Source of the DNA: a virus
DNA length: 23,869 bases
Virus record (IMG/VR): IMGVR_UViG_3300020176_000902
Span: 1 to 23,869 of that record
Direction: 5' to 3' (one strand)
Part shown: positions 1 to 22,836 of the stretch, one piece after another
How positions within the stretch are numbered: position 1 is the stretch's first letter
How the letters are laid out: the number at the start of each line of letters is the position of its first letter
Made by a program: the position numbers and the translations under genes
The notes under the pieces: model-generated
What the model was told of the DNA's origin: nothing
The model's input: the letters and a program-made list of their open reading frames with translations, nothing else
Databases searched by the model: none

Positions 1-190
1 TCAAATTCTCTTCTAAACTACGGAAGTTGTTTGATTCATGTGATGTTTGGCTAATAAAGTGTGCCATACGTCTTTCAGTGTTAATACCGTATTTAGGTAG
101 TACATCTACTAGTGCATCATACCATGCATCAACATCTTTGTTGCCTGGAATAAGTGCTGCTAGGTGTTCTTTTTTTAGTTCAAAGCTCAT
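1..190 (-). CDS. GH19 chitinase-like endolysin, N-terminal part (cut by window edge)
   Basis: The 63 visible residues start at an ATG at 190 and run off the left edge without a stop. They match the N-terminus of phage endolysins of glycoside hydrolase family 19 (chitinase/lysozyme type): an 'LAALIPGN' opening, then 'YGINTERRMAHFISQTSHES' and 'FRSLEENL'. In this family the Glu of the 'HES' motif (E52 here) is a catalytic acid, so the start of the active site is present. The enzyme would cut peptidoglycan at the end of infection. No signal peptide is visible, so export would depend on a holin or another route outside the window. The ATG lies inside the last codons of the upstream Cys-rich gene (11-base overlap), which suggests translational coupling. 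The assignment rests only on the N-terminal motif. Confidence 0.82.
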   Translation of the reverse strand, partial: MSFELKKEHLAALIPGNKDVDAWYDALVDVLPKYGINTERRMAHFISQTSHESNNFRSLEENL

Positions 191-344
191 TTGTTGTATC
201 CTTTTGTTCTGGTTGACAAGCATCGCAAATGCAATGTTTGCATACTTCTACATCGCTTGAGTAGACAGTGTCGCCGTTGTAAAAGTCTTTACGAAGACTA
301 GCGCCGCAATGTGATTCGTGTCCGCAATTTTTACAGTATGCCAT
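180..344 (-). CDS. 54-residue Cys-rich zinc-binding-like protein
   Basis: A short frame from ATG at 344 to TGA at 180-182. It carries seven cysteines: C4-x2-C7, C13, then C35-x2-C38-x-C40-x2-C43, with His at 9, 12 and 37. The paired CxxC knuckles suggest a small zinc ribbon. I do not recognise a named family and assign no function. The stop overlaps the endolysin start, so the two are probably co-translated. There is no Shine-Dalgarno sequence before the ATG. Instead a late-promoter-like TAATAAATAC ends six bases upstream, so the message might begin at the start codon. The real-gene call rests on the Cys pattern, the tight fit between neighbours and the promoter. Confidence 0.7.
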   Translation of the reverse strand: MAYCKNCGHESHCGASLRKDFYNGDTVYSSDVEVCKHCICDACQPEQKDTTNEL

Positions 345-348
345 GAAA

Positions 349-358
349 GTATTTATTA
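349..358 (-). promoter_or_regulatory. T4-type late promoter motif before the Cys-rich gene/endolysin
   Basis: The minus strand reads TAATAAATAC, matching the T4 late box TATAAATA at 7 of 8 positions over AATAAATA. Its first TAA is also the stop codon of the upstream gene. With T4 spacing (last A of the box at -6), transcription would start at 344, the A of the next ATG. Confidence 0.5.
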
Positions 359-1072
359 CAGCTTTTTAAGTACTAATGTAGATCCGGCGTTTTCAAATAC
401 AAATTTGTCGCCATATTTGCAAATATTGTAATCGCCTAAATATTTTGTAAGGAATAAAATCTCTGGATAGGAATCCATTACATCGATCGATTCGTTAATC
501 CGCTTAACTGTCGACATTGTTTCACCAAAGTCTATAAATTCAAACATTATCTTCTCTGCATACGATTTCTTAATAGATAAAATATTATCTTCCATTATAA
601 TTTCTTCTACATAACTATTGTTAAAGAAGTTTTTATAGTTATTAAGATTACTTTCTGAAACAGTAACACCATAACTGTTAGGGTCTAGAGGAACTTGTTC
701 ATTTAAATTGTCCAGTGTTGTTTCGTAGCTTTTGAAGCCTTTGTAATAGCGAAACTTAAATGAATCAATATCAGCTAATTTTTTAACTCCGTCAAGGATC
801 TCCATGATATTGTTATTTGCAGATTTTTCTCTCTGAAGTTCAACAAATACTCTATAGTTGCCGTCACTTTGTTCACCAGCAGTTACATCACTATCAAGTA
901 TAAAACCGTAACCACCTTCTAAGAATCTAACTAAATCGTCAGCAGGTGCTTTGTCTTTAACAGTAAAACTAAGTGTAATAATATTTTTATCTTCGCCCAT
1001 TTTGCTTGCATAAGCATCTATTTCGAAAATATGATATACTAAATCTTTCAAGTCGCCTTGTCTAAGTCCCAT
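356..1072 (-). CDS. Conserved protein of unknown function, possibly virion structural
   Basis: A 238-residue protein, soluble, without membrane segments or a signal peptide. It is acidic and mixed alpha/beta, with 'YGFILDSDVTAGEQSDGNYRV' (near residues 55-75) and an Asn-rich middle ('NLNNYKNFFNNSY'). I recall similar proteins of unknown function in marine T4-like phages next to the gene upstream here, but I can name no domain. Its ATG overlaps the stop of the upstream 179-residue gene by one base (TAATG), so the pair is translationally coupled and probably functions together. A virion or assembly role is an inference from the pairing and the late-type promoter upstream of the pair. Confidence 0.75.
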   Translation of the reverse strand: MGLRQGDLKDLVYHIFEIDAYASKMGEDKNIITLSFTVKDKAPADDLVRFLEGGYGFILDSDVTAGEQSDGNYRVFVELQREKSANNNIMEILDGVKKLADIDSFKFRYYKGFKSYETTLDNLNEQVPLDPNSYGVTVSESNLNNYKNFFNNSYVEEIIMEDNILSIKKSYAEKIMFEFIDFGETMSTVKRINESIDVMDSYPEILFLTKYLGDYNICKYGDKFVFENAGSTLVLKKL

Positions 1073-1611
1073 TATACTACTCCTGCTTCTGGTGCTGGTG
1101 CTGCCGCTGGCATTGCCTCAGGCGCAGCACCCATTGCTGACTGATCAGCAACTTGCGGCTGTTCTTGCGCAGTAATATTGGATAGTTCTTCAATCTTATT
1201 ATATCCGCCATAAATGTCAGCGATTAATTTCTTAGGCATTTGAATTTTTACTAACCAAATTGGATGACGATCGAGTTTGCCTTTTTTAGATCCTGGACGA
1301 ATATCATCTGGTTTGCGAATTTTACGTGGTTTGATAACATAGTCTTTGCCCATGAATACCTTGCAATCATAATCAAGCAAACGTTGTCCGCCCATAGGGT
1401 CTGGCATCTTGTTACGGTCCCACATAAACGTACATGTGACCCAGTGACGATCAATAATTGGACCTTCAGCTAGTTCTCCGTCTTGCCAGTTAGCATAGAC
1501 GTAGATGTCCAATTCGTCTAATACTCTTTCAAAATCTTTTAATACTTGGAAAGAAGTATTACTGTCGTAAATTCCTTCAATGTTTTTTACAATGTCATAG
1601 ATATCTTGCAT
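1072..1611 (-). CDS. Conserved marine T4-like phage protein, probable structural
   Basis: A 179-residue protein. Its conserved-looking core contains 'LKDFERVLDELDIYVYANW', 'ELAEGPIIDRHWVTC' and 'MPDPMGGQRLLDYDC', then a basic stretch 'IKPRKIRKPDDIRPGSKKGK'. The last 35 or so residues are low-complexity Ala/Pro/Glu, a likely flexible tail. From memory, the core is widespread in cyanophage-type T4 relatives with no assigned function. The start is supported by an AGGATGA Shine-Dalgarno at 1615-1621 and a late-type box about 30 bases upstream. It is the first gene of a minus-strand late-type unit leading to the endolysin and is divergent from phoH. A structural role is inferred from promoter type and position only. 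Confidence 0.8.
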   Translation of the reverse strand: MQDIYDIVKNIEGIYDSNTSFQVLKDFERVLDELDIYVYANWQDGELAEGPIIDRHWVTCTFMWDRNKMPDPMGGQRLLDYDCKVFMGKDYVIKPRKIRKPDDIRPGSKKGKLDRHPIWLVKIQMPKKLIADIYGGYNKIEELSNITAQEQPQVADQSAMGAAPEAMPAAAPAPEAGVV

Positions 1612-1637
1612 GGGTCATCCTAATTTTCTTACATACT

Positions 1638-1645
1638 TATTTATC
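1638..1645 (-). promoter_or_regulatory. T4-type late promoter GATAAATA
   Basis: The minus strand reads GATAAATA, 7 of 8 identical to the T4 late box. It would start RNA near 1632, giving a leader of about 20 bases that includes the AGGATGA ribosome site of the 179-residue gene. It lies back-to-back with the phoH promoter. Confidence 0.6.
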
Positions 1646-1688
1646 TTGGTTTGCTGGTTATAAGAACATTTTATCTTAAATTCCGTTT

Positions 1689-1697
1689 GCTAAATAC
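1689..1697 (+). promoter_or_regulatory. Late-type promoter GCTAAATAC for phoH
   Basis: The plus strand reads GCTAAATAC, matching the T4 late core TAAATA. The predicted start is near 1702, leaving a 65-base leader before phoH. The leader holds two overlapping weak stem-loops (caagt/acttg at 1708-1722 and tgcttt/aaagca at 1712-1730), of doubtful meaning. Confidence 0.5.
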
Positions 1698-1766
1698 TTT
1701 CGTAGGGCAAGTGCTTTACTTGAAAAAGCATACTGCACTACTCCATTACTCATAGGAGGACACTTA

Positions 1767-2510
1767 ATGGGTGCAAAAAGAAAAGTAGCTGCTAAATCTA
1801 GACAGCATACTAACACTAATTACGATAATGTAATTAATATCAAACCAATGGGACATTCAGTCCAAAAGAAGACGCAAGTCAACATACTTCCCCGCAATAG
1901 AAACCAAGAAACATACGTGTTAACCTTGCTAGATCCAAAGAAAGACATAGTCTTCGGAGTTGGTCCAGCAGGAACAGGCAAAACTCTTTTGGCTGTGCAA
2001 GTAGCGGTTAAACTATTTAAAGAAGGACAAGTTGATAAGATCATTGTTACTAGACCAGCAGTGTCTGTTGACGAAGACCTAGGCTTCTTACCGGGCACAT
2101 TGGAAGAGAAAATGGCACCATGGACACGACCAATATTTGATGTATTGAGAGAATACTTCCATGCAAAAGAAATAGAAGGGATGATTCAAGAAGGAGTGAT
2201 TGAAATTGCACCGCTAGCATATATGCGCGGCCGCACATTTAAAGATGCGTTTATTTTAGCAGACGAAATGCAAAACGCAACACCAAGTCAAATGAAAATG
2301 TTACTAACACGCTTAGGCACAGGAAGCATGATGGCTGTTACAGGCGATCTAAACCAGGCAGACAGGCTTAAGGATAATGGTCTATTAGATTTTACTAGAC
2401 TATTAGAAACAAGTAACTCAGCACATTTGGACATAGTCCACTTTGAACAAGGAGACATTGAGCGCCATCAGGCAGTTAAGGAAGTCCTAAGAGTATACGG
2501 AGACGAATAA
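1767..2510 (+). CDS. phoH: PhoH-like P-loop ATPase
   Basis: A 247-residue PhoH-family ATPase of the P-loop superfamily. Walker A 'GPAGTGKT' lies at residues 66-73, Walker B 'ILADEMQN' at 163-170, and a sensor-like 'VTGDLNQ' at 191-197. The 'VTRPAVSVDEDLGFLPGTLEEKM' block between them is a family signature. The first 45 or so residues are basic and poorly structured. The start is set by an AGGAGGA ribosome site at 1754-1760. PhoH is common in marine phages and belongs to the host Pho regulon in E. coli; its role in phage is unresolved, with RNA-related and phosphate-stress functions both proposed. It is the only plus-strand gene in the first 22 kb, with its own promoter and terminator, so it is expressed as a single-gene unit. 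Confidence 0.95.
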   Translation: MGAKRKVAAKSRQHTNTNYDNVINIKPMGHSVQKKTQVNILPRNRNQETYVLTLLDPKKDIVFGVGPAGTGKTLLAVQVAVKLFKEGQVDKIIVTRPAVSVDEDLGFLPGTLEEKMAPWTRPIFDVLREYFHAKEIEGMIQEGVIEIAPLAYMRGRTFKDAFILADEMQNATPSQMKMLLTRLGTGSMMAVTGDLNQADRLKDNGLLDFTRLLETSNSAHLDIVHFEQGDIERHQAVKEVLRVYGDE

Positions 2511-2529
2511 TTATTAAAGGCTAGAAATG

Positions 2530-2556
2530 GGGGGCTGTAATTAGTCCCCTATTTTT
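2530..2556 (+). terminator. Intrinsic terminator after phoH, inside the 3' end of the dCMP deaminase gene
   Basis: The stem is GGGGGCT (2530-2536) with AGTCCCC (2543-2549), including one G-T pair, around the 6-base loop GTAATT. TATTTTT follows at 2550-2556. The T-run lies only on the plus-strand side, so it should stop phoH RNA. The last codons and the stop of the convergent dCMP deaminase gene are built into the hairpin. Confidence 0.75.
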
Positions 2557-2975
2557 ACGACTTCAATTTTAGATTGATTAAGAAAGTCAATACCGTCTGT
2601 GCTACGATAAGCATTACGGTAGTATACAGTATTAATTCCGCTTTGATATATTAACTTGGCACAATCCATACAAGGAGCATGAGTAATAAACATATCAGCA
2701 CCAAGGCCAGATTCGTTCGATCTTGCCAACTTAGCGATCGCATTAGTTTCCGCATGTAATACCTCCGGTTTAGTTTTTAATACAGGATTGCCTTTATCAA
2801 ACCCTATATGATTCTCACAATTATTGTCCCAACCACTAGGCATACCGTTGTAGCCAATACTGATAATGCGATCATCCTTTACAACAATCGCTCCTACATT
2901 TAAACGCTTTGCTGAACTTAGTTGTGCAAAACGTTCAGCAACATCCATGTATGCATCGATAAATTTTTGTTTCAT
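2541..2975 (-). CDS. cd: dCMP deaminase
   Basis: A 144-residue zinc-dependent deoxycytidylate deaminase (dCMP to dUMP), of the cytidine/deoxycytidylate deaminase superfamily. Zinc ligands and catalytic Glu are visible: H74-A-E76 in 'HAETNAI', and C102/C105 in 'APCMDC'. The N-terminal 'AKRLNVGAIVVKDDRIISIGYNGMP' block is typical. The start overlaps the thyA stop (ATGA at 2972-2975). The enzyme therefore feeds dUMP to the thymidylate synthase made from the same message. It is shorter than the 193-residue T4 Cd, but core motifs are complete. It is the last gene of the minus-strand nucleotide unit and ends against the phoH terminator. Confidence 0.95.
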   Translation of the reverse strand: MKQKFIDAYMDVAERFAQLSSAKRLNVGAIVVKDDRIISIGYNGMPSGWDNNCENHIGFDKGNPVLKTKPEVLHAETNAIAKLARSNESGLGADMFITHAPCMDCAKLIYQSGINTVYYRNAYRSTDGIDFLNQSKIEVVKIGD

Positions 2976-3832
2976 ACAGCCATCGGAGCCTTAATTGAAT
3001 CCATTGGATTATAATTAACAAGTTTATAGTCACTTGTAGTAGTTTCTAATAGTTCTGCAAGATTACTAAACTGTGGCATTTCTAGTGTAGGACCCTGCAT
3101 AGGAGTACGCTCAAGTTGTTGTTTAACTTGCTCCATATGATTACTATAGATATGACAATCACCGCCAGTCCAGATAAATTCACCTACTTCTAACCCGCAG
3201 ATTTGTGCCAACATGTGCGTAAGTAAACTGTAACTAGCAATGTTAAAAGGAACGCCTAAGAACATATCTGCACTACGCTGATACATTTGGCAACTAAGTT
3301 TGCCGTTAATAACTTTAAACTGGCTAAGTGTATGACAAGGCGGGAGTGCCATATCTTCAAGTTCACTAGGATTCCACGCACTTAGAATAATACGACGACT
3401 GTCTGGGTCTGTAGTAAGTTGGCGAATAATATTGTGCATTTGGTCAAATCCTTCGCCGTTAAAATCACGCCATTGGCTACCATAAACTGGACCTAGTTCT
3501 TTTACTTCGTCATCGTTACGATATCCTAGTGCAACTCCTTGTGCGTCAGCATTGGCAGTCCAAATTGTTTTCTTGTCTACAATCTCGCTACGATGCTTTT
3601 CAAATGTGCGTTCAGCTAGTCTACGCTCGTCTGTACTACCTTCTAAAAACCATAGCAGCTCGCCTACTACACTGCGCCACGCAAGTTTCTTAGTAGTAAC
3701 CGCAGGAAACTCTTTGCGTAAATCAAAACGCATTTGATAACCAAATACTGTGCGTGTGCCTACACCTGTACGATCGCTTACATCTTCACCATTGTCTAAA
3801 ATATATTGTAGTGCATCAAGATATTGTTTCAT
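2972..3832 (-). CDS. thyA: Thymidylate synthase ThyA (T4 Td type)
   Basis: A 286-residue folate-dependent thymidylate synthase (dUMP + methylene-THF to dTMP + DHF), the same length as T4 Td. Signatures: 'DRTGVGTRTVFGYQMRF' near the N-terminus, the catalytic Cys in 'LPPCHTLSQF' (C166), 'QRSADMFLGVPFNIASYSLL' for dUMP binding, 'GGDCHIYSNH', and the C-terminal 'IKAPMAV'. A longer frame opens at 3859, but I chose the ATG at 3832. It gives the canonical MKQYL start of ThyA and has a GGA-type ribosome site just upstream. The gene overlaps the small membrane protein gene by 17 bases and dCMP deaminase by 4. ThyA makes dihydrofolate, so the nearby DHFR closes the folate cycle. Confidence 0.96.
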   Translation of the reverse strand: MKQYLDALQYILDNGEDVSDRTGVGTRTVFGYQMRFDLRKEFPAVTTKKLAWRSVVGELLWFLEGSTDERRLAERTFEKHRSEIVDKKTIWTANADAQGVALGYRNDDEVKELGPVYGSQWRDFNGEGFDQMHNIIRQLTTDPDSRRIILSAWNPSELEDMALPPCHTLSQFKVINGKLSCQMYQRSADMFLGVPFNIASYSLLTHMLAQICGLEVGEFIWTGGDCHIYSNHMEQVKQQLERTPMQGPTLEMPQFSNLAELLETTTSDYKLVNYNPMDSIKAPMAV

Positions 3833-3995
3833 CTTTTTCCTTTTTAATTGGCATATCATAGTAGTCTGTTAGACCTTTGCGCTGCCGCTCTTTCTTTTCG
3901 CTAATTAGTACACTAGACATCCAAGCAAACCATCCTACGCCTATAAGAACTGCCACACCTAACAGTGTGTTATAAATTTCAAATAGTGTTGACAT
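3816..3995 (-). CDS. 59-residue single-pass membrane protein between frd and thyA
   Basis: The ATG at 3995 gives MSTLFEIYNT followed by one hydrophobic segment (about residues 11-31, 'LLGVAVLIGVGWFAW'), then a charged Lys/Glu/Arg tail of 28 residues. The start lies inside the end of the DHFR gene and the stop inside the start of thyA, each with a 17-base overlap, so it is wedged into the operon by overlap on both sides. A longer frame beginning at 4100 exists, but its extra part lies entirely inside DHFR. I recognise no family. The topology suggests a small inner-membrane protein with a cytoplasmic C-terminal tail. The function is unknown. Confidence 0.68.
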   Translation of the reverse strand: MSTLFEIYNTLLGVAVLIGVGWFAWMSSVLISEKKERQRKGLTDYYDMPIKKEKDETIS

Positions 3996-4485
3996 TACGT
4001 TTTTCCATAATCTGAAACTTAACTTCGGGGTGTTCCTCTTCCCATTTAACTTTAAACAATGAATCAATTTTACGAATTGGTAAATGTGTATCACAATCAA
4101 AGTCGCCAGGAATACGACTTAGATAAAACTCATCAATAACACCTAACGATTGTTCGATAATATTTGGTCCGCCAATTACCCAAATAATTAGTCCTGGATT
4201 TTGTTCTGCAAGTGCTTTAAGATGAATATTCAAATCTCCAGTAATATATGCGTCAGGGCGAGGATTAATGTAGTTGCTCATCCTTGTAGTTACAAGAATG
4301 TTTTGACGATTAGGCAACGGCCGAGGCATATGCGGATCTTCCCAAGTAGTAGATCCCATTACAACAACGTGTCCTGCTGTACTATTCTTAAACCATTGCA
4401 AGTCTGTAGTATTATGCGGCCAAGGCAGTGTACCGTTCTTACTTACGCCGCCTGTATCGTCGCAGGCCAGTATAGCTTTAATCAT
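3979..4485 (-). CDS. frd: Dihydrofolate reductase
   Basis: A 168-residue DHFR (DHF + NADPH to THF). Visible motifs: 'AILACDDTGGVSKNGTLPW' with the Met20-loop equivalent, the catalytic acid D28 in 'HNTTDLQWFK', 'VVMGSTTWE' (residues 41-49), and the cofactor-binding 'WVIGGPNII' (102-110). Its start overlaps the ferredoxin stop (TAATG), with an AAAGGA ribosome site upstream. As in T4, frd precedes the thymidylate synthase gene, but here a small membrane-protein gene lies between them. It regenerates the folate that ThyA oxidises, so the pair lets the phage make dTMP whichever thymidylate synthase its host uses. Confidence 0.95.
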   Translation of the reverse strand: MIKAILACDDTGGVSKNGTLPWPHNTTDLQWFKNSTAGHVVVMGSTTWEDPHMPRPLPNRQNILVTTRMSNYINPRPDAYITGDLNIHLKALAEQNPGLIIWVIGGPNIIEQSLGVIDEFYLSRIPGDFDCDTHLPIRKIDSLFKVKWEEEHPEVKFQIMEKRNVNTI

Positions 4486-4841
4486 TAGTAAGATCCTTTA
4501 CCAGGAAGCTCGCTAAAATATTCTTCAAACTTATTGGGAACTCCATCCCAATCTGCTGCATCTAACGGAACGTCTTCTGGTCGAGCTTGTGTGATTACTG
4601 GCCAAATTAAACTATATTTTCGATTAATTTCTTCCCATCGAATTGATTCTTCAGGATCTATCGCATTGTCTGGGACAATAGCATTTACAGGGCATTCTGG
4701 TTCACAAACGCCGCAATCAATACATTCATCTGGATTAATTACTAGAAAGTTTTCACCTTCGTAAAAACAGTCTACTGGACATACTTCGACGCAGTCCATA
4801 TGTTTACATTTTACACAGTTATCAGTTACTAAGTATGTCAT
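4485..4841 (-). CDS. fdxA: 7Fe ferredoxin ([3Fe-4S][4Fe-4S]), FdxA type
   Basis: A 118-residue ferredoxin closely resembling Azotobacter FdI and alphaproteobacterial FdxA. All nine N-terminal cysteines sit at FdI positions plus one: C9, C12, C17, C21, C25, C40, C43, C46, C50. By homology C9/C17/C50 bind the 3Fe cluster and C21/C40/C43/C46 the 4Fe cluster. '[15 protein letters not shown]' and the C-terminal '[10 protein letters not shown]' look alphaproteobacterial. It is a cytoplasmic low-potential electron carrier. The redox partner is not evident here. It has an AGAGGA ribosome site and sits in the replication/nucleotide operon between the sulfotransferase and DHFR. Probably a host-derived auxiliary metabolic gene; no cluster ligand is lost, so it should be functional. 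Confidence 0.95.
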
Positions 4842-4852
4842 TATTTTTCCTC

Positions 4853-5770
4853 TTAGAATGGTAGTTTAGGTCTATTTCGAACGTAATTATATAAAGAAAA
4901 GTCTTGACGTTCTGCATTAATTAATTTTTCTATGTCTGGTTGTTTCATAACATCTTCGTATGTCCAAACTCCAGGTACTTTTTCTCCTGTTTTATTTTCA
5001 AATACATTGTCATAGAATGGAATATTAATTAAATTACAAAAGTTTTTTATATCTTCAGTTTGATCTTCTTTGGCAGTAATCCACCAAAACTTATTAATTA
5101 ATGGTTTTACTATATCCCACAGATCAATATCCGTGTCATTCCACCATAGCCATTCGGGCAGTGTAATAGGAACATTATCTGCTGGCAACGTTTGCATTGC
5201 ATGAAAGTTACCATCGTATGTTGGATGTGGTTGCCATCCGCTGCCTGATTCATCCAATCTTAAAAATGTTTTAATAAGCCATTTTGATTGTAAATTATGT
5301 TCAATATTAGCATCTTTATAATATTGCCAAAGTGTGTCATAATCAGCCGCAGATGCACTATTTGCTACTGCATTAGTATTCATTAACGGACTTGCTGAAA
5401 AGACACCAGGTTCTTGTAAAAGAATGTGCCTTGAATGCCTATGATTAAAACTACTTAAAACCCGTTTAATTGGATCTCGAACAAATGTTATGTATTTCGG
5501 ATCTCTAGATACCCGTAGCCAGTGATAACTATTAACAAACACAGAGTGTCCTGAGATAATTTTAAGATTTTTTTGTTGTTCCTTTGTTCTGTGTCTTAAT
5601 ATTGGAATATCTTTCCAGGCGTAGATAGGATTACTAAATCCTTGACAGTAATTATAATGAGTCCAACAAGTACCGTTTTCCTTTGAATAGGCATCCCCTA
5701 CATAGTTTTGAAATGCAGTGCCTGCTGTTCTTGGTATATGTACCTGAATAAAAATAGAGTCTGTATACAA
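4853..5770 (-). CDS. Sulfotransferase-family protein (PAPS-dependent), TTG start
   Basis: A 305-residue protein with the two PAPS-binding elements of the sulfotransferase fold. A 5'-phosphosulfate loop '[10 protein letters not shown]' spans residues 11-20 (compare 'HIPKTAGTS' of the Sulfotransfer_2 group), and a 3'-phosphate site '[13 protein letters not shown]' spans 96-108. 'SGHSVF' (73-78) between them is also typical. The C-terminal half is Trp-rich and probably contacts the acceptor, which I cannot identify. No signal peptide is visible. The reading frame begins with TTG directly after the gp44 stop (TAA-TTG); there is no ATG or GTG before residue 120 or so, and only a weak GAGA ribosome site, so translation may depend on coupling to gp44. 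Glycan, lipid or small-molecule sulfation are all possible. Confidence 0.85.
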
Positions 5771-6685
5771 TTAAATTCTCGCTAAACGAATAAGAGTTGC
5801 TGCTAGATTAATCTCGGCATCAGCAACTAACGCATGATCTACCAAACCTTGCTTAATAGTTAGCACAGCAGTGTCTTGTTGCTCTTCACTTCCGAACAAT
5901 TCAACATTGTCATACAGCCAACGATAAATCTCTTCCATTTCTTCTGGACGAACTGCCCCGCAAAGCAATTTACGTGCATCGTTAATTTTGCCTTGTTTAA
6001 ACAATTCAACCATGTCTAGTTTCCAATCAGTAGTGCCTGCATCACCTTCATTTGGACGCAACAGGCTACCTTCCTGTACATTCATCTGTACCATGTTGAT
6101 ACATTTGCGCAAGTCTGGATAGGTTGCTTTTACATAAGTGTCAAGGATGTCTAGATCCGGTACCACCCCTTCCGTAATAAGAATTTCAGCCACGCGAGCT
6201 GTAAACTCAGTCTGATCGATCTTAGCAATATGGAAGCCCTGACACCGACTGTGGATAGCTGGAATAATACGATTAGGGTAATTACATGTAAGTATAAACC
6301 TAGCAGTTGTATGATATTCTTCCATAACTCCACGAAGTGCTGCTTGTGCTCCTGGAGATAAGTAATCTGCCTCATCTAATAGTACTACCTTAAAGTCGCC
6401 AAACGGAATCATTTGTACAAAGTTAACAATCTTATTACGCACATCATCAACTGAGTTTGTACGAGATGCGTTAATTTCTAAAATATCTAAATCGTTAATA
6501 TCAAGTTCGTTGAATAGTAATTTAGCAAGAGTGGTCTTTCCAATACCTGCATTACCACTGAACAACAGATGCGGAATGGTTTTATCTTTAATCCAAGTTT
6601 GTACTTGTTTCCGTTGTGCTTCGTCGCGAAACACATAACCGTCTACCGTTTTTGGTCGATACTTTTCTACCCATAATTCTTTCAT
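5771..6685 (-). CDS. 44: Clamp loader large subunit (gp44-like AAA+ ATPase)
   Basis: A 304-residue AAA+ clamp-loader ATPase (T4 gp44 is 319). N-terminal 'LWVEKYRPKTVDGYV' is the RFC/gp44 signature. Walker A 'GNAGIGKT' spans residues 44-51, Walker B 'VVLLDEAD' 100-107, sensor 1 'LTCNYPNRI' 132-140, and the 'SRC' arginine-finger motif 146-148. It would load the gp45-type sliding clamp for the phage polymerase, in complex with a small subunit. In T4 that subunit (gene 62) follows gene 44 directly. Here the next gene is a sulfotransferase and no gp62 is recognisable in the window. The start overlaps the stop of the DexA-like gene (ATGA). Confidence 0.95.
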   Translation of the reverse strand: MKELWVEKYRPKTVDGYVFRDEAQRKQVQTWIKDKTIPHLLFSGNAGIGKTTLAKLLFNELDINDLDILEINASRTNSVDDVRNKIVNFVQMIPFGDFKVVLLDEADYLSPGAQAALRGVMEEYHTTARFILTCNYPNRIIPAIHSRCQGFHIAKIDQTEFTARVAEILITEGVVPDLDILDTYVKATYPDLRKCINMVQMNVQEGSLLRPNEGDAGTTDWKLDMVELFKQGKINDARKLLCGAVRPEEMEEIYRWLYDNVELFGSEEQQDTAVLTIKQGLVDHALVADAEINLAATLIRLARI

Positions 6686-7218
6686 CGTTTTAGTCCTAAC
6701 TCTTTATATGCTATTTGAATTGCTTTTGATTGAAAATATGCATCTGCCAATGCGTTGTGCAAATCAGTTTGCATTGCTTTGCGTGGATCTTGTTGGCAAC
6801 AGCCAAATAGTGTTCTAGAATCCCGTATAATCCAAAAGTTCCACGGAATCGGCTTTCCGCAGCGGCGGAACATGTCTTCCAGTATGGTGTAGTCAAAACC
6901 GTAACCTTGTCCCCATAATGTATCAACACCAACGACCCATTTGCTAATTTGACGTAAAGCCTCATCTACGCTAACTGCACCAGTTTGATCAAAGGCTTCT
7001 TCCATAATCTTAGGATCTTGTTTGCCCCACCACTCGATTGTGCTGTCACTAGCTGTACGACCTAGAGCATCTTGCTCATCAATACTAATCTTTAGATAAA
7101 GTTCTGAATGTGGTTCGCTGTCATCCAGCGGATTAAACTTAACTGCACCTAATGATAGTACAGTTGCACTTGGACTAGTATCAATAGTCTCTAGGTCGAT
7201 TGTGCCGTGTGTGGCCAT
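6682..7218 (-). CDS. dexA: DexA-like 3'-5' exonuclease (DEDDh)
   Basis: A 178-residue DEDDh exonuclease of the Rv2179c/T4 DexA type. Exo I is 'IDLETID' (D8, E10), Exo II 'GYGFDYTIL' (D109), and Exo III 'LHNALADAYFQ' (H154, D159), so all four metal-binding acids and the general-base His are present. T4 DexA degrades single-stranded DNA 3'-5'; family members acting on RNA also exist, so the substrate is uncertain. The protein is shorter than T4 DexA (227). It heads the unit dexA-44-sulfotransferase-ferredoxin-frd. Expression appears specially controlled: a consensus sigma-70 promoter and a 46-base inverted repeat that includes its GCAAGGAGT ribosome site lie just upstream. Confidence 0.88.
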   Translation of the reverse strand: MATHGTIDLETIDTSPSATVLSLGAVKFNPLDDSEPHSELYLKISIDEQDALGRTASDSTIEWWGKQDPKIMEEAFDQTGAVSVDEALRQISKWVVGVDTLWGQGYGFDYTILEDMFRRCGKPIPWNFWIIRDSRTLFGCCQQDPRKAMQTDLHNALADAYFQSKAIQIAYKELGLKR

Positions 7219-7224
7219 AAAAAT

Positions 7225-7270
7225 ACTCCTTGCAATTTATATACATTATAGCAAATAAACTGCAAGGAGT
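7225..7270 (-). promoter_or_regulatory. Inverted repeat sequestering the dexA ribosome site
   Basis: Arms at 7225-7240 (actccttgcaatttat) and 7255-7270 (ataaactgcaaggagt) are complementary at 15 of 16 positions, with a 14-base spacer. In minus-strand RNA the 3' arm contains AAGGAGU, the Shine-Dalgarno of the DexA-like gene, and is followed by AUUUUUAUGG. A read-through transcript can therefore form a long hairpin that hides the ribosome site or acts as a weak intrinsic terminator. A transcript begun at the internal promoter (near 7238) lacks the 5' arm. The structure is seen in the sequence; the regulation is inferred. Confidence 0.75.
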
Positions 7271-7273
7271 CAA
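7245..7273 (-). promoter_or_regulatory. Consensus sigma-70 promoter (early type) for the dexA-44 unit
   Basis: On the minus strand, TTGACT (7268-7273) and TATAAT (7245-7250) are separated by exactly 17 bases. This is the best host-type promoter I found in the window. The predicted start is near 7238, inside the inverted repeat. It would drive the replication/nucleotide genes early with host polymerase. Confidence 0.82.
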
Positions 7274-7285
7274 GTAGTTTTTAAA

Positions 7286-7642
7286 TTATTTTACAAATTG
7301 CGCAAGTTCCGGGGCCTTCCAACCTTCTGGCTTTAGAACTTTACCATCTTCACGTTTAGTTACTTTACCTGTATTAGGATCAATCTTAGCAAAGTTAGTT
7401 TTCATAACTTCGTTCCATGCTGCTTCACCATCCCAGCCAGCTGCTCTGATAGCACCAATAGTAACAACAAGAATATCTACAAGTGCATCAAGTTGTTCTA
7501 CTTGATCGCCTGCAATGATAGCGTCTTTTAGTTCGCCTGTTTCTTCTGTAATTAAATCAAGATACATAGCATAGTTGTTAATACTAGGAGTTTGATCACA
7601 CGCTGTTTGAAATAAGTCTACGTCTTTAAATGGATTAGTCAA
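7286..7642 (-). CDS. MazG-like nucleotide pyrophosphohydrolase, TTG start
   Basis: A 118-residue all-alpha NTP pyrophosphohydrolase-like protein. The metal-binding helix pattern is 'LITEETGELKDA' (E33, E34, E37) followed by 'LDALVDILVV' (D52, D56), as in MazG/phosphoribosyl-ATP pyrophosphohydrolase folds. The C-terminal 'NFAKIDPNTGKVTKREDGK' is typical of the phage group. It would hydrolyse (d)NTPs or an alarmone-like nucleotide; the substrate cannot be read from sequence. The frame begins with TTG at 7642, preceded by AAGAGG at a 6-base spacing. There is no in-frame ATG between the upstream gene's stop and the conserved region, so TTG is the likely start. It lies 10 bases after the GroES-like gene. 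Downstream transcription meets the hairpin before dexA. Confidence 0.85.
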   Translation of the reverse strand: MTNPFKDVDLFQTACDQTPSINNYAMYLDLITEETGELKDAIIAGDQVEQLDALVDILVVTIGAIRAAGWDGEAAWNEVMKTNFAKIDPNTGKVTKREDGKVLKPEGWKAPELAQFVK

Positions 7643-7652
7643 TGTCTGCCTC

Positions 7653-8063
7653 TTAATAGCTTGGGTTTACAAATGCACTTGGATCTACGGTAGCATGTTC
7701 ACCGTCAGTATATTCTTTTCCAATATACACATCGTTTGGTTTTTCTTGTGCGTAACCTAACACACTTTCTGCTTCTACCATACGAATTTCTTTATCACCG
7801 TCGTCTGTTTCTACAGAAAAACTACGTGTCCATCGGCCGTGGTCTACTAAAATCCAATGACCGATTTCGTATTCATCTTTATTATCAGGGCCTTTGTCGT
7901 ATACCTTAGCCCAACGTGGATAGATGCCTCGAGTAGTGCCGTCGTCGTCTTTGATAATAAGTCCACTTGATGTCTTTTGCTCACCAAAGTACATGTCTGT
8001 TACAAGTACTCGGTTACCGACTGCCCGCGGATTGCCTTTAACTTTATTAATTTGAACGCCCAT
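7653..8063 (-). CDS. GroES-like co-chaperonin (gp31-type)
   Basis: A 136-residue co-chaperonin of the GroES beta-barrel family. 'NRVLVTDMYFGEQKTSSGLII' (residues 17-37) aligns with the GroES start and mobile loop; 'GLII' occupies the place of the hydrophobic GroES tripeptide that binds GroEL. The later 'GHWILVDHGRWTRSF' and 'IRMVEAESVLGY' match the barrel and C-terminus of the GroES fold. T4 gp31 performs this role so that GroEL can fold the major capsid protein. About 35 extra C-terminal residues have unknown function. A frame opening at 8108 exists, but the ATG at 8063 is preferred: it has a GGAGC ribosome site, overlaps the upstream stop (TAATG), and drops an unlikely Arg-rich leader. Confidence 0.85.
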   Translation of the reverse strand: MGVQINKVKGNPRAVGNRVLVTDMYFGEQKTSSGLIIKDDDGTTRGIYPRWAKVYDKGPDNKDEYEIGHWILVDHGRWTRSFSVETDDGDKEIRMVEAESVLGYAQEKPNDVYIGKEYTDGEHATVDPSAFVNPSY

Positions 8064-8371
8064 TATTTGCTCCGTGGTACAAAGTTGCCGTCGTCGTCTT
8101 CTTCCCATTCTGCTGCTTCTGTCGCAGTAGGTTGATTCCTTGCTACAGACTGTTCTTCTTTTACACCAGGGTTAGACTGATAATAGTCTTTAAGTAATTC
8201 TTCTTTTTTACGAACAATCTTACCGCCTGCACCTAGTTGGTCGCCACGTGCATTTACACGAGCATTGCCAACTGCTGGAGTTAGTTCATTGCGCTGACGT
8301 AGCATATCCATGTCAACGATCTTGCCGTTAGCACTTCTGTGGACTTTACGTCCTGGTTGTTTCATAGCCAT
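8063..8371 (-). CDS. Conserved marine phage protein of unknown function
   Basis: A 102-residue hydrophilic protein. Its basic N-terminus begins 'MAMKQPGRKVHRSANGKIVDM', followed by 'PAVGNARVNARGDQLGAGGKIV', a basic helix-like stretch 'RKKEELLKDYY', and an acidic end 'EWEEDDDGNF'. From memory similar short proteins occur next to co-chaperonin-type genes in marine T4-likes; no function is established and I see no catalytic motif. Low sequence complexity suggests disorder and a possible nucleic-acid or virion-internal role, which is a guess. The AAAGGAGAT ribosome site is strong, and the stop overlaps the start of the GroES-like gene. Confidence 0.8.
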   Translation of the reverse strand: MAMKQPGRKVHRSANGKIVDMDMLRQRNELTPAVGNARVNARGDQLGAGGKIVRKKEELLKDYYQSNPGVKEEQSVARNQPTATEAAEWEEDDDGNFVPRSK

Positions 8372-8396
8372 TGCTAATCTCCTTTAATTATATACT

Positions 8397-8404
8397 TACT
8401 TATC
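8397..8404 (-). promoter_or_regulatory. Possible late-type promoter GATAAGTA
   Basis: The minus strand reads GATAAGTA, two differences from TATAAATA and one from the GATAAATA boxes elsewhere in this window. It overlaps the stop of the upstream gene and lies upstream of a strong AAAGGAGAT ribosome site. A TATAAT at 8387-8392 also exists but has no good -35. Confidence 0.3.
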
Positions 8405-8957
8405 TCAGGAACTCTCTCCAATCCAGGTCATATTGGATTGAATTAATTCTATGTACACCTATTAAGTATAGCACATAACTTGCTACACTACTACCTCTTC
8501 CTACGCCCCACACAATATTGTTCTCACGCATAAAGTCCACAAGATAAACCATATAGCGTAGCAAGTCTTCCATGCCGCGTTCTCTAAACGCTTCAAGTTC
8601 TTCGCAAACTCTAGTCCATTCTACTGTTTCTTGCATGTCATATGGATCGTAAATTTGCATAGTATGAATTAGGCGTGACATTATATCTGCACCTATGTCT
8701 AGAGTCTTGTATTTGTCAGGCATAAACCATTCCGACTGTAACGCACCGTCAAAGTCTTTCTGATCTACATCTAGGGGAATATATTTTGTAAGCTCGGGTA
8801 GATATTGTTCACGCATTGCTGCGTTAAACTTTTCAATATCATCACTAGGGTCGCATAACACCACATGACATTTGTCAACATGACCACTATAGATCATGTC
8901 AATAAGATCGCGATTCGTGAAACGTGGTATACCTAGTTCATCTGTTTTCATAAGCAT
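8400..8957 (-). CDS. DNA polymerase III alpha-related fragment, apparently non-catalytic
   Basis: A 185-residue protein. Its C-terminal part 'GVGRGSSVASYVLYLIGV' (151-168) and 'YDLDWREFLR' (176-185) match the start of the palm region of bacterial C-family polymerases ('GxGRGSSxGSLVxYxLGI...FDLxFERFL'). It stops just where DnaE would continue into the catalytic PDFDxDF aspartates, so it cannot be a polymerase by itself. The N-terminal 150 residues are acidic and helical with no recognised motif. It may be an accessory or regulatory replication protein, or a decoy of the host polymerase. The start is ATG 8957 or the ATG two codons later (8951). No ribosome site is visible; a hairpin occupies its place, suggesting coupling to the upstream gene. 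Confidence 0.72.
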   Translation of the reverse strand: MLMKTDELGIPRFTNRDLIDMIYSGHVDKCHVVLCDPSDDIEKFNAAMREQYLPELTKYIPLDVDQKDFDGALQSEWFMPDKYKTLDIGADIMSRLIHTMQIYDPYDMQETVEWTRVCEELEAFRERGMEDLLRYMVYLVDFMRENNIVWGVGRGSSVASYVLYLIGVHRINSIQYDLDWREFLR

Positions 8958-8961
8958 GTAA

Positions 8962-8989
8962 ACAGTTTAACTGATATTGATTAAACTGT
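8962..8989 (-). repeat. Hairpin between the 78-residue gene and the pol III-like gene
   Basis: Perfect 9-base arms acagtttaa (8962-8970) and ttaaactgt (8981-8989) surround a 10-base loop. In RNA the 3' arm ends four bases before the ATG at 8957 and includes the upstream gene's UAA. No U-run follows, so it is not an intrinsic terminator. A role in translational coupling is inferred. Confidence 0.55.
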
Positions 8990-9203
8990 CAAGCCCTTTT
9001 TCGCCGTTTTGTTCTTGTTGTTGTTGATATTGTTTTGCACGTCTTGCACGTGACTCTTCACGATACATATCTAATATCGTAGCAATTTGTGCCTGAACTT
9101 GAGGATTGTGAGACATAAAATATTTACGCTGAAGTTCGAGTAGTTTATTCTCAACTTCAGCGTCACTTAGTTGTTCAAAGCTGTCAACTAAAGGATTAAA
9201 CAT
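8967..9203 (-). CDS. Small conserved phage protein, helical, function unknown
   Basis: A 78-residue protein opening 'MFNPLVDSFEQLSDAEVENK' and predicted to be mostly helical. Its middle section 'QAQIATILDMYREESRARRAKQ' is amphipathic and basic, followed by a Gln-rich linker and 'SLINIS' at the C-terminus. I recall near-identical architecture in marine T4-like phages but no assigned role. Its ATG sits against the upstream structural gene's stop (9203 shared), so it is co-translated with virion-type proteins. The stop codon is buried in a hairpin before the next gene. Confidence 0.8.
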   Translation of the reverse strand: MFNPLVDSFEQLSDAEVENKLLELQRKYFMSHNPQVQAQIATILDMYREESRARRAKQYQQQQEQNGEKGLDSLINIS

Positions 9204-9760
9204 TAATCAAAAGTTCCGTGATCTTGTGCGAACACTGTAATGCCGCCATTGATAGTCCAAAAGTCTATAATAGTTGGATTAGTTTGTGATGCTACTACTG
9301 TTGTTCCAGCAAACGCTCCTGCGCCTTTAAAGCCGCCACCGCCAGCACTTGCCCAAGTAATAGTTCTTGACGTACCATCACTTGTAAGTTGTAGACGCAT
9401 TTTCCCCATTACGCCGCTTTCAGGCCAATCAGAAAGAGTAAGTGTAATATTAGCACCTGCTTGCAATGTCTGATAATGGCCAGCTTCCCAACTAACGTTT
9501 TGACTAGCAGTAACGTTGCCAGAAGAATAAACAGTTTCAGTATTTGCTTTAAGTTCAGCTTCACTAATTAGACTGCCATTAAATGCGTTATCTGCATTAA
9601 GTTTAGCAGTATCGTTTTGCAATGTTGTAATCTCACTAGCTGCGGCCTCTAGCCCCACTTTAGTTACATTGAAGTTTGTACGAAACCCCTGACTATCATT
9701 ATCTTGACCAGCTACTGGGAACGCTGCATCAAATCCTACTGTACTAATTGCACTTGCCAT
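9203..9760 (-). CDS. Virion structural / tail-fibre-type protein
   Basis: A 185-residue protein. A helical N-terminal third has 'GFRTNFNVTKVGLEAAASEI' (25-44), followed by an Ala/Asn-rich repeat-like stretch. A beta-rich C-terminal domain has 'LQAGANITLTLSDWPESG' (98-115) and 'NPTIIDFWTINGGITVFA' (161-178). This C-terminal pattern recurs as a small domain in marine phage tail-fibre and structural proteins. It lacks enzyme motifs. It starts downstream of a CATAAATA late box with an AGGAG ribosome site, consistent with late expression. The exact virion position (fibre, baseplate or decoration) cannot be told. Confidence 0.72.
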   Translation of the reverse strand: MASAISTVGFDAAFPVAGQDNDSQGFRTNFNVTKVGLEAAASEITTLQNDTAKLNADNAFNGSLISEAELKANTETVYSSGNVTASQNVSWEAGHYQTLQAGANITLTLSDWPESGVMGKMRLQLTSDGTSRTITWASAGGGGFKGAGAFAGTTVVASQTNPTIIDFWTINGGITVFAQDHGTFD

Positions 9761-9780
9761 ATTTTATATCTCCTGTATCA

Positions 9781-9788
9781 TATTTATG
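9781..9788 (-). promoter_or_regulatory. T4-type late promoter CATAAATA
   Basis: The minus strand reads CATAAATA, 7 of 8 identical to the T4 late box. The predicted start near 9775 leaves a short leader with AGGAG before the 185-residue structural gene. Confidence 0.6.
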
Positions 9789-9792
9789 TTTG

Positions 9793-12573
9793 TTAAGCAT
9801 TGAATTCGTAATTTGCGAATAATATGTATTGTTCTTGCGAATTACCTTCAGCATTATCTATTAAGTATCGATCAATATCTAATTCGTATCGACTAAAGTC
9901 TATGTTAAGATAGTCAATGGTATTTGCAATTATCTTTGCAGTACCTGGCTTACAATAACATAATGGAATGGCATTAACAAACCCTAATTCGGTTATAGTA
10001 TCTTCTTGTGACGATCTCATCCATAAAGGTAAAAAGTTCTTTTCAGTTTCGCCGATATCTTTAATAGCAGCTCTCATATGTGTCATATTTGAAATATAAC
10101 GAGTTGTGTCGTTTTCGCCGCTTACAAGAATAGCGTCACTGTCTGTTGTAATTACGTTGGTGGGCCATGGTCTGTACTTGTTACTTTCTATTACTCCTGG
10201 AGTAAATGGCACTCTTATAGAATATCCTGTTTGAATTAACACTTCTAATAGGCTTGTAATAGGTAATTTGTATATTTGATCTCTGCCATTAATGTTTAGT
10301 AATTCTATCCATTTTATTGTAACGTCGCCATCTTCGCGAGTGGTTATATTAAATTCAGAAAGCTCACTTGCATATGTATCGTTAATATCATTATATCTCG
10401 CACTGTTAACTAGTACTTTTTCAGAATTTCTAATCTTTATTTGTTTAGCGACTTTTTCATTCTTTTTAGTCGATTGCTGAGGATCAATTACTTCTAAGTA
10501 AACTACTTCGTATACTACATCCTGTGTTCCAGGAGTTTTAGCAACTGCGGTCTTTACCTTGCCGATATTAAGATTTCGTCTTTTATGATTCTTTGCTGCG
10601 GCTGCAACAAAATGTTCAACTGCTTTAGCTTCGATGCCTGCGTATGCAAGTATTTTAATTCTAGTCTGAATACCAAAATTAGGATCGTTTGGTCTGTATA
10701 AGTATTCTGGTAAGAATATCTCTGCATTGTTTACAAAGTTAATAAATGCAGTTCTTTGCGTCTGTGTAAGCATAGGTTGAAAAAATACATTACTATACTG
10801 TTTGTTATCAGGGTCTGAAAGCCTTACTGTAAATGTTCTTTCAATAGCACTAAATCCAAATTGATCTTGTGCTTTAATTGTAAAATTAAATATTCGATCA
10901 AATGTAGTAGTATTACCATCTAGTTGCATTTGTTGACTATCAAATACTGTTAATCCAGCTTGATCAACAGTTCCAAAACTATTAACTTTTCCAATCAATT
11001 CTCCATCTAATGAAAGTCTGATTCCCGGAGGCAATGTTCCGCTAGTTAGTGTATAAAGCAAATTAGCATTAGGGACTGTAGTGCTTGCATTAACACTTAA
11101 TGTACTAATATAGTTTGCACTAAATGATCCTAAGTTACTAGGTGTATTCCAAGTAATAGTTGATTCTACTTCACCTAATAATTTTATTACAAATGTTTTT
11201 TCGCTGACAGCATCTTCAGTATCAACGATACTAATAGTGCCAAAGTTAATACTTGTACCTTCAGTAAATGCAGTAACTATTGCTCTGTTTAATGTTAATA
11301 CATCGTAGTTTGCATTACTAGTACTAATACTTCTAACAATATATGCATTGCCTGCTATAGTAAATTCCTTACCTACTACATATTCTGAGTAGTTGTCAAA
11401 TTTACTAACTTTAATTTGTGCAACACCTGGGTTGGCACTTTCATACATGTATTCGATTAATTGAACTCTGTCAATGTCGTACCCGATACGTTGTGCAGCA
11501 ATAGTAAATTTATATTCTTGAGTTACAGCAGGCTGATAAGGAACTCGTCCTGCAATCTCGCCAGTAATAGTATCAAGTTCTAAACCCGGTGGCAATATAC
11601 TAGGACTGTTGTCGTCATTAAATGCCTTCTGATAAAAACTAACAACACCTGCTAACGAGTTAGTATCAATAACATCAAGTACAAGTGTAACATAATTGTT
11701 AGCTCGTCTATAGCCGAAGTCTCTTGGGGTTAGCCATATCGGTACTCTTATATGTGTGTTATCTGCACTAAAGACACCTGAGCCTACGTTCATAACAGTA
11801 GTATCAGCTCTAAAGAAGTCGTCGCCTACTACATATAACTTAAACGTACGACTTGCAATAGTATCACCGTCACTTACACTAACAATAAATTCATAGTATC
11901 TATTAAGTTTCTTTGGTGAACGTGTAGGAGTACTTAGGTCGTAAATCGTAGTGTCATAATAAAAACTGTCAAACCCGTTAGAACTTGGAACACTCCAATC
12001 ATATGCACTAGTAGATCCTGCGTCATATCCGGCGTCATCATAAAATCCTGACCCACTTGCTTTTTCTATTGCGAGTATAGGATCAACTACACCGACTAAT
12101 CTACCATCTCTAGTTAACTGTATGCCCGGGGGTAATACCCCACCTTTTGCAGGTATAAAATATTCAAGAACTTGCCCAGCAGCAGTATCAGTATCGATAA
12201 CTTCTAATTGAAAGTCAACAGGTGCGCTATCTAAAATATAATAAACTCCATTGTTACCTGCAGGCAACAAATCAGCAGGCGTCTGCCATACAGGCGCATC
12301 TTCGCCTAATACTGTTATCTTAAATGTTCTATCGCTTATTTGAGAATTATATGTTGCCCTAAGTACAAATGTACTAACTGTTTCTCTCGAAACTTCAATC
12401 GGAGTTCCTAAAATAGTATTATTAACTAAACGCAAGCCTGCAGGCAAACTTCCGCTTATTAGTGCAACTGATGCACTTGGTTCTGAAAGTGGTAATGTTA
12501 ACGGTGCAATAGTTACTTGTTCTTCCAAAGTACCAAGGCTATCACCGTTATTGCTTGTCCAAAAGTTTGCCAT
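9793..12573 (-). CDS. Large fibre/adhesin-like protein with four putative Ig (He_PIG) modules
   Basis: A 926-residue protein. Four times it shows the hallmark of putative Ig/cadherin-like (He_PIG) domains, a 'LPxGLxL...G.I.G' loop: near residues 43-57 ('LPAGLRL'), 147-162 ('LPPGIQLTRDGRLVG'), 325-342 ('LPPGLELDTITGEIAG') and 512-527 ('LPPGIRLSLDGELIG'). Each is followed by a 'RTFKITVLG'-like closing strand. From about residue 590 the C-terminal third is different, with a Lys/Arg-rich 'KNHKRRNLNIGKVK' section and an end domain containing 'PLCYCKPGTAKIIANTIDYL'. There is no signal peptide. Such modular beta proteins form tail fibres or virion surface adhesins. It has a late box and an AGGGA ribosome site. 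The C-terminal domain may be the virion attachment or assembly part. Confidence 0.83.
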   Translation of the reverse strand: MANFWTSNNGDSLGTLEEQVTIAPLTLPLSEPSASVALISGSLPAGLRLVNNTILGTPIEVSRETVSTFVLRATYNSQISDRTFKITVLGEDAPVWQTPADLLPAGNNGVYYILDSAPVDFQLEVIDTDTAAGQVLEYFIPAKGGVLPPGIQLTRDGRLVGVVDPILAIEKASGSGFYDDAGYDAGSTSAYDWSVPSSNGFDSFYYDTTIYDLSTPTRSPKKLNRYYEFIVSVSDGDTIASRTFKLYVVGDDFFRADTTVMNVGSGVFSADNTHIRVPIWLTPRDFGYRRANNYVTLVLDVIDTNSLAGVVSFYQKAFNDDNSPSILPPGLELDTITGEIAGRVPYQPAVTQEYKFTIAAQRIGYDIDRVQLIEYMYESANPGVAQIKVSKFDNYSEYVVGKEFTIAGNAYIVRSISTSNANYDVLTLNRAIVTAFTEGTSINFGTISIVDTEDAVSEKTFVIKLLGEVESTITWNTPSNLGSFSANYISTLSVNASTTVPNANLLYTLTSGTLPPGIRLSLDGELIGKVNSFGTVDQAGLTVFDSQQMQLDGNTTTFDRIFNFTIKAQDQFGFSAIERTFTVRLSDPDNKQYSNVFFQPMLTQTQRTAFINFVNNAEIFLPEYLYRPNDPNFGIQTRIKILAYAGIEAKAVEHFVAAAAKNHKRRNLNIGKVKTAVAKTPGTQDVVYEVVYLEVIDPQQSTKKNEKVAKQIKIRNSEKVLVNSARYNDINDTYASELSEFNITTREDGDVTIKWIELLNINGRDQIYKLPITSLLEVLIQTGYSIRVPFTPGVIESNKYRPWPTNVITTDSDAILVSGENDTTRYISNMTHMRAAIKDIGETEKNFLPLWMRSSQEDTITELGFVNAIPLCYCKPGTAKIIANTIDYLNIDFSRYELDIDRYLIDNAEGNSQEQYILFANYEFNA

Positions 12574-22414: not shown

Positions 22415-22774
22415 TTAAATTACTGGGGTTGCCAGCTTGTCCATATCAAAATTTACGCTAACTCCGCAACCACATGCAGACTTTGCATTAGGATTTCTTA
22501 TCTCAAAATTTGCGCCGACTATACTTTTAACATAATCGATTTCTGTTCCTACTAAAAACATTAAACTGTGTGCGCCTATAACTAAACTACCTTGATCACA
22601 TGCTATTACAAAGTCATGTTCTTCAATTTCTTCTACTTGTAGGGTTCCCCATTCGTATTCAAAGCCAGCACAGCCGCCTCCTTTAAGGTTTAAGCTGATT
22701 GCGTAACAGTCATTTTCTTGACATAATTTGCCAATTTGATGATTTGCTCGAGCTGTTACTGTACAAATACTCAT
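22415..22774 (-). CDS. HesB/IscA-type iron-sulfur cluster carrier
   Basis: A 119-residue A-type Fe-S carrier. The three conserved cysteines are present: C35 in 'GGGCAGFEY' and C101/C103 in 'SACGCGVSVNF'. The family assembles or delivers Fe-S clusters in the cytoplasm (IscA, ErpA, SufA, HesB), and phage copies occur in marine T4-likes. Length and cysteine spacing are normal, so it should be functional. It lies between the giant fibre gene and a divergent zinc-ribbon gene, downstream of an AATAAATAC late box and a GAAGGA ribosome site. Late expression suggests Fe-S support for virion-stage enzymes or for host metabolism during infection. It could supply the clusters of the phage ferredoxin, but timing differs (the ferredoxin unit has an early promoter). 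Confidence 0.93.
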   Translation of the reverse strand: MSICTVTARANHQIGKLCQENDCYAISLNLKGGGCAGFEYEWGTLQVEEIEEHDFVIACDQGSLVIGAHSLMFLVGTEIDYVKSIVGANFEIRNPNAKSACGCGVSVNFDMDKLATPVI

Positions 22775-22803: not shown

Positions 22804-22823
22804 ATTTAATTTTATAATCTTAA

Positions 22824-22831: not shown

Positions 22832-22836
22832 TAGTT

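Follow-up and report, generated by a model that had tools for sequence, protein, structure and literature searches.

T4-type late promoter boxes stand so close to ATG start codons in a marine virus of bacteria and its relatives that they probably define a conserved class of late transcripts, predicted to be leaderless. The window analyzed here is the whole of a linear IMG/VR virus record of 23,869 bases. It holds two such sites, one on each strand. At both, the late box (AATAAATA or TGTAAATA) is separated from the start codon by a gap of 5 (gap meaning the bases between the late box and the start codon), and the gene lacks a Shine-Dalgarno sequence (SD). The features at and around the two sites are as follows.

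1 to 190, minus strand: endolysin gene, cut by the window end (phrog_181, endolysin, E = 8.1e-15, 2-223), with its own SD, AAGGA.
180 to 344, minus strand: gene for a 54-aa CxxC (zinc-ribbon-like) protein, an open reading frame (ORF) whose first base (344) is the predicted +1.
345 to 349, minus strand: spacer CTTTC, 5 bases, predicted −5 to −1, of the same length in four close relatives (L001 to L004).
350 to 357, minus strand: T4-type late promoter box AATAAATA, from sequence, running into the upstream gene's stop codon; gap 5 is kept in L001 to L004 (two distinct sequences).
356 to 1072, minus strand: upstream virion structural protein gene (phrog_13138, E = 1.2e-26), whose stop codon overlaps the box.
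22796 to 22803, minus strand: divergent late box AATAAATA, serving the gene at 22774 to 22415; leadered, with gap 21 and SD AAGGA.
22810 to 22825, plus strand: conserved 16-base block TTTTATAATCTTAATG, from information content, containing TATAAT (sigma-70 −10-like) at 22813 to 22818.
22824 to 22831, plus strand: late box TGTAAATA before the 95-aa gene, from sequence and conservation.
22832 to 22836, plus strand: spacer TAGTT, 5 bases, from sequence.
22837 to 23124, plus strand: gene for a 95-aa CxxC protein, an ORF with relatives in 45 IMG/VR loci; predicted +1 at its first base.

The sequence-only reading had placed the end of AATAAATA six bases before the ATG at 344; counted exactly, five bases intervene, and position six past the box is the A of the start codon. 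Its statements that this gene has no SD and that the same geometry recurs before a CxxC gene at 22837 also held up: AGGA, GGAG, and GAGG are absent from 4 to 16 bases before the first ATG, and the second site reads TGTAAATA, TAGTT, ATG, again with gap 5 and no SD. A late box (N[ACG]TAA[AG]TA) lies within 60 bases of 10 of the 23 gene starts listed in the window; 2 of these 10 are at gap 5 without an SD, and 8 are at gaps of 18 to 26, 7 of them with an SD. A missing SD alone is not special, being found also at 4 of 13 window starts without a box. The motif is likewise no more frequent than expected, with 4 copies of AATAAATA found against 3.36 expected (4 is reached in 41 of 100 shuffles) and 54 matches to TATAAATA with one mismatch against 69.9 expected. 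The AATAAATA count is what would be seen if AT-rich DNA simply yielded such boxes by chance, and motif enrichment was rejected as an argument by itself; the case therefore rests on position and conservation. NRTAAATA stands at gap 4 or 5 before 3 of the 776 ATG triplets on both strands of the window, the third being an internal Met. The geometry is conserved over many loci, for the ATG at 344 alone over two distinct close sequences, and in the census described below a reverse-oriented box occurred at gap 5 in 2 cases versus 74 for the true orientation (2/81 at gap 4 to 5). Against these observations, chance is a vanishingly improbable account. The geometry at the two window sites is real and conserved, recognized by position and not by frequency.

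For the census, PhoH and clamp-loader searches contributed 80 loci each (the best 80 matches of a longer list; some loci overlap). In all, 211 loci and the window gave 3,571 nonidentical genes under a simple longest-ORF rule, and 2,991 of these were homology supported, that is, had at least two homologues in other loci. Using the box N[ACG]TAA[AG]TA and allowing start shifts of up to 60 bases, we found 151 supported genes from 15 families at gap 4 to 5 (133 at gap 5; 146 distinct 50-mers) and 523 at gap 14 to 45, with 32 box-start pairs at gap 6 to 13. The distribution of box-ATG gaps is bimodal, with two discrete classes, 4 to 5 versus 14 to 45. Eleven of the 15 short-gap families contain two or more genes; the other four are singletons and may be due to chance. 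Six short-gap cases in one candidate family, family 11, were rejected as internal Met residues (shift 87), one of which persists in the final census. An SD accompanied 3 of the 151 genes at gap 4 to 5 and 5 of the 32 pairs at gap 6 to 13, versus 492 of 623 leadered box-start pairs. All 151 short-gap genes start with ATG and none with GTG or TTG (a looser shift limit admits one GTG). The sequence features expected of a leaderless mRNA, no SD and an AUG start, are seen at 344 and 22837 and in the class as a whole. Since an SD was also absent from 1,203 of 2,632 supported genes at their first ATG, a missing SD alone does not identify a gene as leaderless. A count free of gene calling, which retained the overlapping and redundant loci among the 211, returned 1,688 copies of NRTAAATA; an ATG triplet followed at gap 5 in 140 cases, compared to 53 at gap 3, 45 at gap 4, 21 at gap 6, and 6 at gap 7.

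A/U-rich leaders can aid initiation without an SD, which counts in favor of TAAATA acting in the RNA as a ribosome (S1) binding element instead of as a promoter. Composition, however, does not account for the pattern: gap 4 to 5 was occupied by 92 of 580 NRTAAATA and 59 of 251 TAAGTA boxes, whereas permuted A/T boxes of like composition were far fewer there (at most 19/264 for TTAAAA and 12/104 for TAATTA). In addition, the same box also stands 16 to 30 bases upstream of genes that do have an SD. We therefore regard an RNA element as very unlikely.

The octamers AATAAATA and TGTAAATA stand before the two genes; their place relative to +1 is taken from T4, whose late box is TATAAATA. The T4 late box spans −13 to −6 (PMC1524935), approximately one helical turn upstream of the transcription start (PMC2988020). 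With a gap of 5, this spacing would put +1 on the A of the ATG, as the sequence-only reading had argued for the gene at 344, and the published coordinates agree with its prediction. Among leadered promoters, A (0.57) and purines (0.75) are most frequent six bases past the box, as expected of +1; a family bootstrap of a pyrimidine-purine test for +1 did not single out that base. Half of 10 related large contigs matched a gp55-type sigma (phrog_12791; E = 2.6e-80 to 1.4e-75). The other 5 had no match, among them the 275-kb record behind L076, which matched neither late-sigma family; the window itself is a fragment.

The 54-aa protein matches Pfam Zn_ribbon_3 weakly (E = 0.062, below the cut-off). 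Its ATG at 344 is the first ATG, GTG, or TTG of the ORF, and the translation has no second Met. The endolysin gene begins (ATG at 190) before the 54-aa gene has ended, the two sharing 11 bases. The window endolysin resembles that of a relative (L136, 16677 to 17552; E = 4.2e-73), where endolysin and then two Rz-like spanin genes come after the 54-aa gene. Since the 54-aa gene precedes endolysin, and spanins as well in that relative, a promoter at 350 would drive lysis genes late.

Relatives of the 54-aa gene were found in six IMG/VR loci. Both the box and gap 5 are retained in four of these (L001 to L004; 80 to 85% identity, two distinct upstream sequences); the other two (L005 and L006; 56 to 58% identity) have no box and carry TAA directly before the ATG, with AAGG. 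In more distant members of the family (L147, L159, and L195), the box is a variant and the spacer differs in sequence; the gap is again 5. In the wide set, 5 of 16 members, these three among them, lie at gap 4 to 5 and 11 do not, the latter having an SD in some cases and an N-terminal extension in others. The comparison of spacing across homologous loci that the sequence-only reading had proposed thus agreed with its interpretation for this gene, with gap 5 in L001 to L004, L147, L159, and L195; against it stand the 11 members with other arrangements. A longer N terminus in homologues, which it had named as a sign against its start site, is absent from close relatives but present in some distant ones. 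The picture is not simple, given that several homologues (for example, those in L198, L211, and L214) start inside the upstream gene and have extended N termini. In the pelagimyophage set, a 54-aa homologue is listed in six loci. The arrangement is box-5-ATG in L318 and L319, box-6-ATG in L321, and box followed by 17 or 20 bases with an SD in L339 and L341; the homologue in the sixth, L327, was assigned to neither class. The Mosig homologue has 18 bases between box and ATG, with GAGG, and that of HTVC008M has an SD and no box. Judging from these sequences, the 54-aa gene appears to occur in either a leaderless-type or an SD-led form, with no intermediate among the homologues classed in the pelagimyophage set.

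The ATG at 344 lies 11 bases past the upstream stop codon and so could be read from a longer mRNA. Generalized to both genes, this alternative has them translated from mRNAs started upstream, by read-through (with coupling or 70S scanning at 344), leaving the box idle or a minor promoter; the TAA and AAGG directly before the ATG of L005 and L006 agree with it. However, the neighbor upstream of the 95-aa gene is divergent, which leaves no adjacent cistron from which transcripts could run into it, whole families hold gap 4 to 5, and an SD is absent from 148 of the 151 genes. Translation from longer mRNAs is therefore quite unlikely.

Of the 45 loci found for the 95-aa gene, 43 were used for the gap count, leaving out L049 (50% identity) and L051 (partial), and these comprise 28 distinct upstream sequences. 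All 28 have the box at gap 5 (25) or gap 4 (3), so that here the proposed spacing comparison bore out the geometry in full; L049 too has TAAATA five bases before the ATG. The single-linkage cluster holding this gene (57 members, 21 at gap 4 to 5) includes unrelated or upstream-extended ORFs, and because of this contamination we relied on the direct count instead. The same 28 upstream sequences carry a divergent TATTTATN box, with TTTTATAA following after 6 bases in 25 of them and after 7 in 3. A single 62-base intergenic region (between 22415 to 22774 and 22837 to 23124) combines late promoters for both strands, one SD-led and the other of the leaderless type.

Conservation upstream of the 95-aa gene extends beyond the late box. 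Across the 26 gap-5 rows of 30 distinct upstream sequences, mean information for the TTTTATAATCTTAATG block was 1.46 bits (−30 to −6) versus 0.70 bits at −60 to −31 and 0.71 bits at third codon positions. At the end of this block, an ATG is immediately followed by TAA (window, L007 to L048, and L050). Conservation well above the flank would fit TATAAT (22813 to 22818) being the true promoter, with a leader of about 12 bases lacking an SD and the late box secondary. However, no conserved −35 or extended −10 was seen by eye in the upstream listing, and TTTTATAATC is restricted to the 95-aa cluster (21 of 21 matches upstream of homology-supported genes), whereas the box geometry is general. We consider it unlikely that TATAAT is the principal promoter; the block suggests an added early promoter beside the late one.

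The short gap is kept in other families as well. A probable virion protein (phrog_13657, unknown function, E = 1.8e-17; phrog_14467, virion structural, E = 5.7e-11) has it in 36 of 36 members and the DnaJ family in 56 of 66. The DnaJ domain match begins at residue 2, which independently fixes the DnaJ start as right. In eight of the 10 DnaJ members off gap 4 to 5, TAAGTATATAATA is present and TATAATA stops five bases short of the ATG. In this family (L055 to L214), the late box is mostly TAAGTA instead of TAAATA, with the five-base gap retained. Smaller shares were found for a 194-aa protein (9/17) and an Rz-like spanin family (5/81). The sequence-only reading had labeled the gene at 344 Cys-rich; both window genes do encode CxxC proteins, but the geometry is more general than these two, making the label incidental. 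Elsewhere in the window, positions 14180 to 22402 (minus strand) form a single 2,740-aa ORF, and a smaller gene nearby (12609 to 13310) shares a similar NDGTGDD N-terminal stretch.

Cultured Pelagibacter phages carry the same arrangement. In the HTVC008M stretch examined (10,282 to 147,284), box-start pairs number eight at gap 5 and one at gap 4, and each of these nine coincides with an annotated start; another eight are leadered, and seven further pairs are at gaps 0, 1, 6, 7, 8, and 10. An SD is present in 1 of the 9 at gap 4 to 5 versus 7 of the 8 leadered pairs. Three of the eight gap-5 boxes are NCTAAATA, a weaker match. The gap-5 genes are annotated as DNA end protector, head completion, tail tube associated base plate protein, base plate wedge subunit, tail completion, tail tape measure, adenylate/guanylyl cyclase, and transcriptional regulator; the labels gp2, gp4, gp54, gp25, and gp3 were assigned in this analysis and are not from the annotation. 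The gp4 case (head completion; L053:8662) is doubtful, as AAGG precedes its ATG. The HTVC008M annotation includes a late sigma and a putative late promoter factor. A wider pelagimyophage census of 1.34 Mb took in 126 IMG/VR loci and the stretches from HTVC008M and Mosig (near-identical phages included), with homology support for 942 of 1,333 genes. It gave 73 genes from 11 families at gap 4 to 5 and 75 leadered genes, with an SD in 1 of 73 versus 52 of 77 leadered pairs; 26 further pairs were at gap 6 and 15 at gap 8. The spacing is not always strict, since a gp25-like family (n = 55) has gaps of 5 (23), 6 (17), 8 (13), 7 (1), and 9 (1). The gp25-like gaps of 5, 6, or 8 (L267 to L346) would agree with transcription beginning at the closest purine or with leaders no longer than 3 bases.

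Other phages gave mixed results. Mosig (40 kb) has three pairs at gap 5, all at annotated starts. Of two short-gap matches in PA5oct (100 kb), one coincides with the annotated start of a structural protein whose entry is marked ESI-MS/MS; the other (L216:10253) lies 15 bases inside an annotated start and was rejected. Atu_ph07 (50 kb) has none at gap 4 to 5, and its match at gap 3 was discarded as upstream of the annotated start; a gap-5 match in ORM_20 was discarded as internal to an annotated coding sequence (27440 to 27994). The late stretch of Caulobacter phage Cr30 has no box-start pair and is hence uninformative. The clamp loader and PhoH show 54.6% and 49.6% identity to the PA5oct group (Arenbergviridae-like jumbo phages), in which PhoH adjoins virion genes too; megablast of window positions 1 to 12000 returned no match. 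On the sequences compared, the short-gap geometry recurs in many related and some distant marine viruses.

Taken together, we consider it likely that both window sites are T4-type late promoters, which a gp55-type sigma of the phage would recognize together with the sliding clamp, and that each is placed to start transcription at the A of the ATG. Late messages from them would then be leaderless, with ribosomes loading at the 5′-terminal AUG without an SD. At 344, a leaderless 54-aa cistron would be followed by the overlapping endolysin gene with its own SD (and by spanins in L136), the promoter serving lysis; at 22837, the conserved TATAAT block may give the 95-aa gene overlapping early and late promoters. 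We lean, by a modest measure, toward a broader proposal: that the late genes of marine T4-superfamily phages (a group related to jumbo phages, together with Pelagibacter myophages) include a second, discrete class that is leaderless by promoter placement. Selection would hold the spacing to a range of one or a few bases across virion, chaperone, and lysis genes, perhaps to let these genes be translated late in infection by an initiation route (70S loading) other than that of SD-led late genes. A whole late-gene class would then be leaderless through placement of the phage's own late promoter. Its occurrence in cultured Pelagibacter phages makes the prediction directly testable, and the geometry would improve annotation of start codons and promoters in ocean phages.

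Leaderless phage mRNA as such is not new, given the remark in PMC5312081 that phage transcripts are "often leaderless." Among the matches listed from the open-license literature without preprints (titles and abstract openings), there was no report of leaderless T4-type late mRNAs, nor, in the literature covered, a description of HTVC008M late genes as leaderless. Leaderless late transcription by promoter placement would seem a fresh combination of two known things. For pelagimyophage genomes, PMC7029224 describes prediction of middle and late promoters as unsuccessful, and the gap-5 geometry may be one reason for failure with the late ones. HTVC008M resembles the window in having boxes at gap 5 before late virion genes but is a 147-kb phage of a separate lineage.

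The T4 late promoter (TATAAATA; gp55/gp33/gp45) shares the box, and its kind of sigma is the one matched in half of the related large contigs. In T4 (100 of 169 kb), however, box-ATG gaps are 12 to 39, 18 of 20 leadered starts have an SD, and none lies at gap 4 to 6 (one pair is at gap 9 if any base is allowed at box position 2). Cyanomyovirus late promoters (NATAAATA; S-PM2 and Syn9) also have the box seen here (PMC2984593), whereas Syn9 (100 of 177 kb) and S-RIM14 (42 of 181 kb), searched with our box, have gaps of 16 to 39; none of these three stretches has a pair at gap 4 to 5. Overlapping early and late promoters are described for RB49 and S-PM2 (the same source, PMC2984593), and TATAAT and TAAATA likewise occur together upstream of the 95-aa gene, where both may operate; the difference is that in the window the late box abuts the ATG. 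The cI mRNA of lambda, named as leaderless in PMC9031893, has a 5′-terminal AUG without an SD, as predicted for the window genes. Lambda cI is one gene expressed from a host-type promoter, whereas here a class of late genes is predicted to be leaderless from a phage late promoter.
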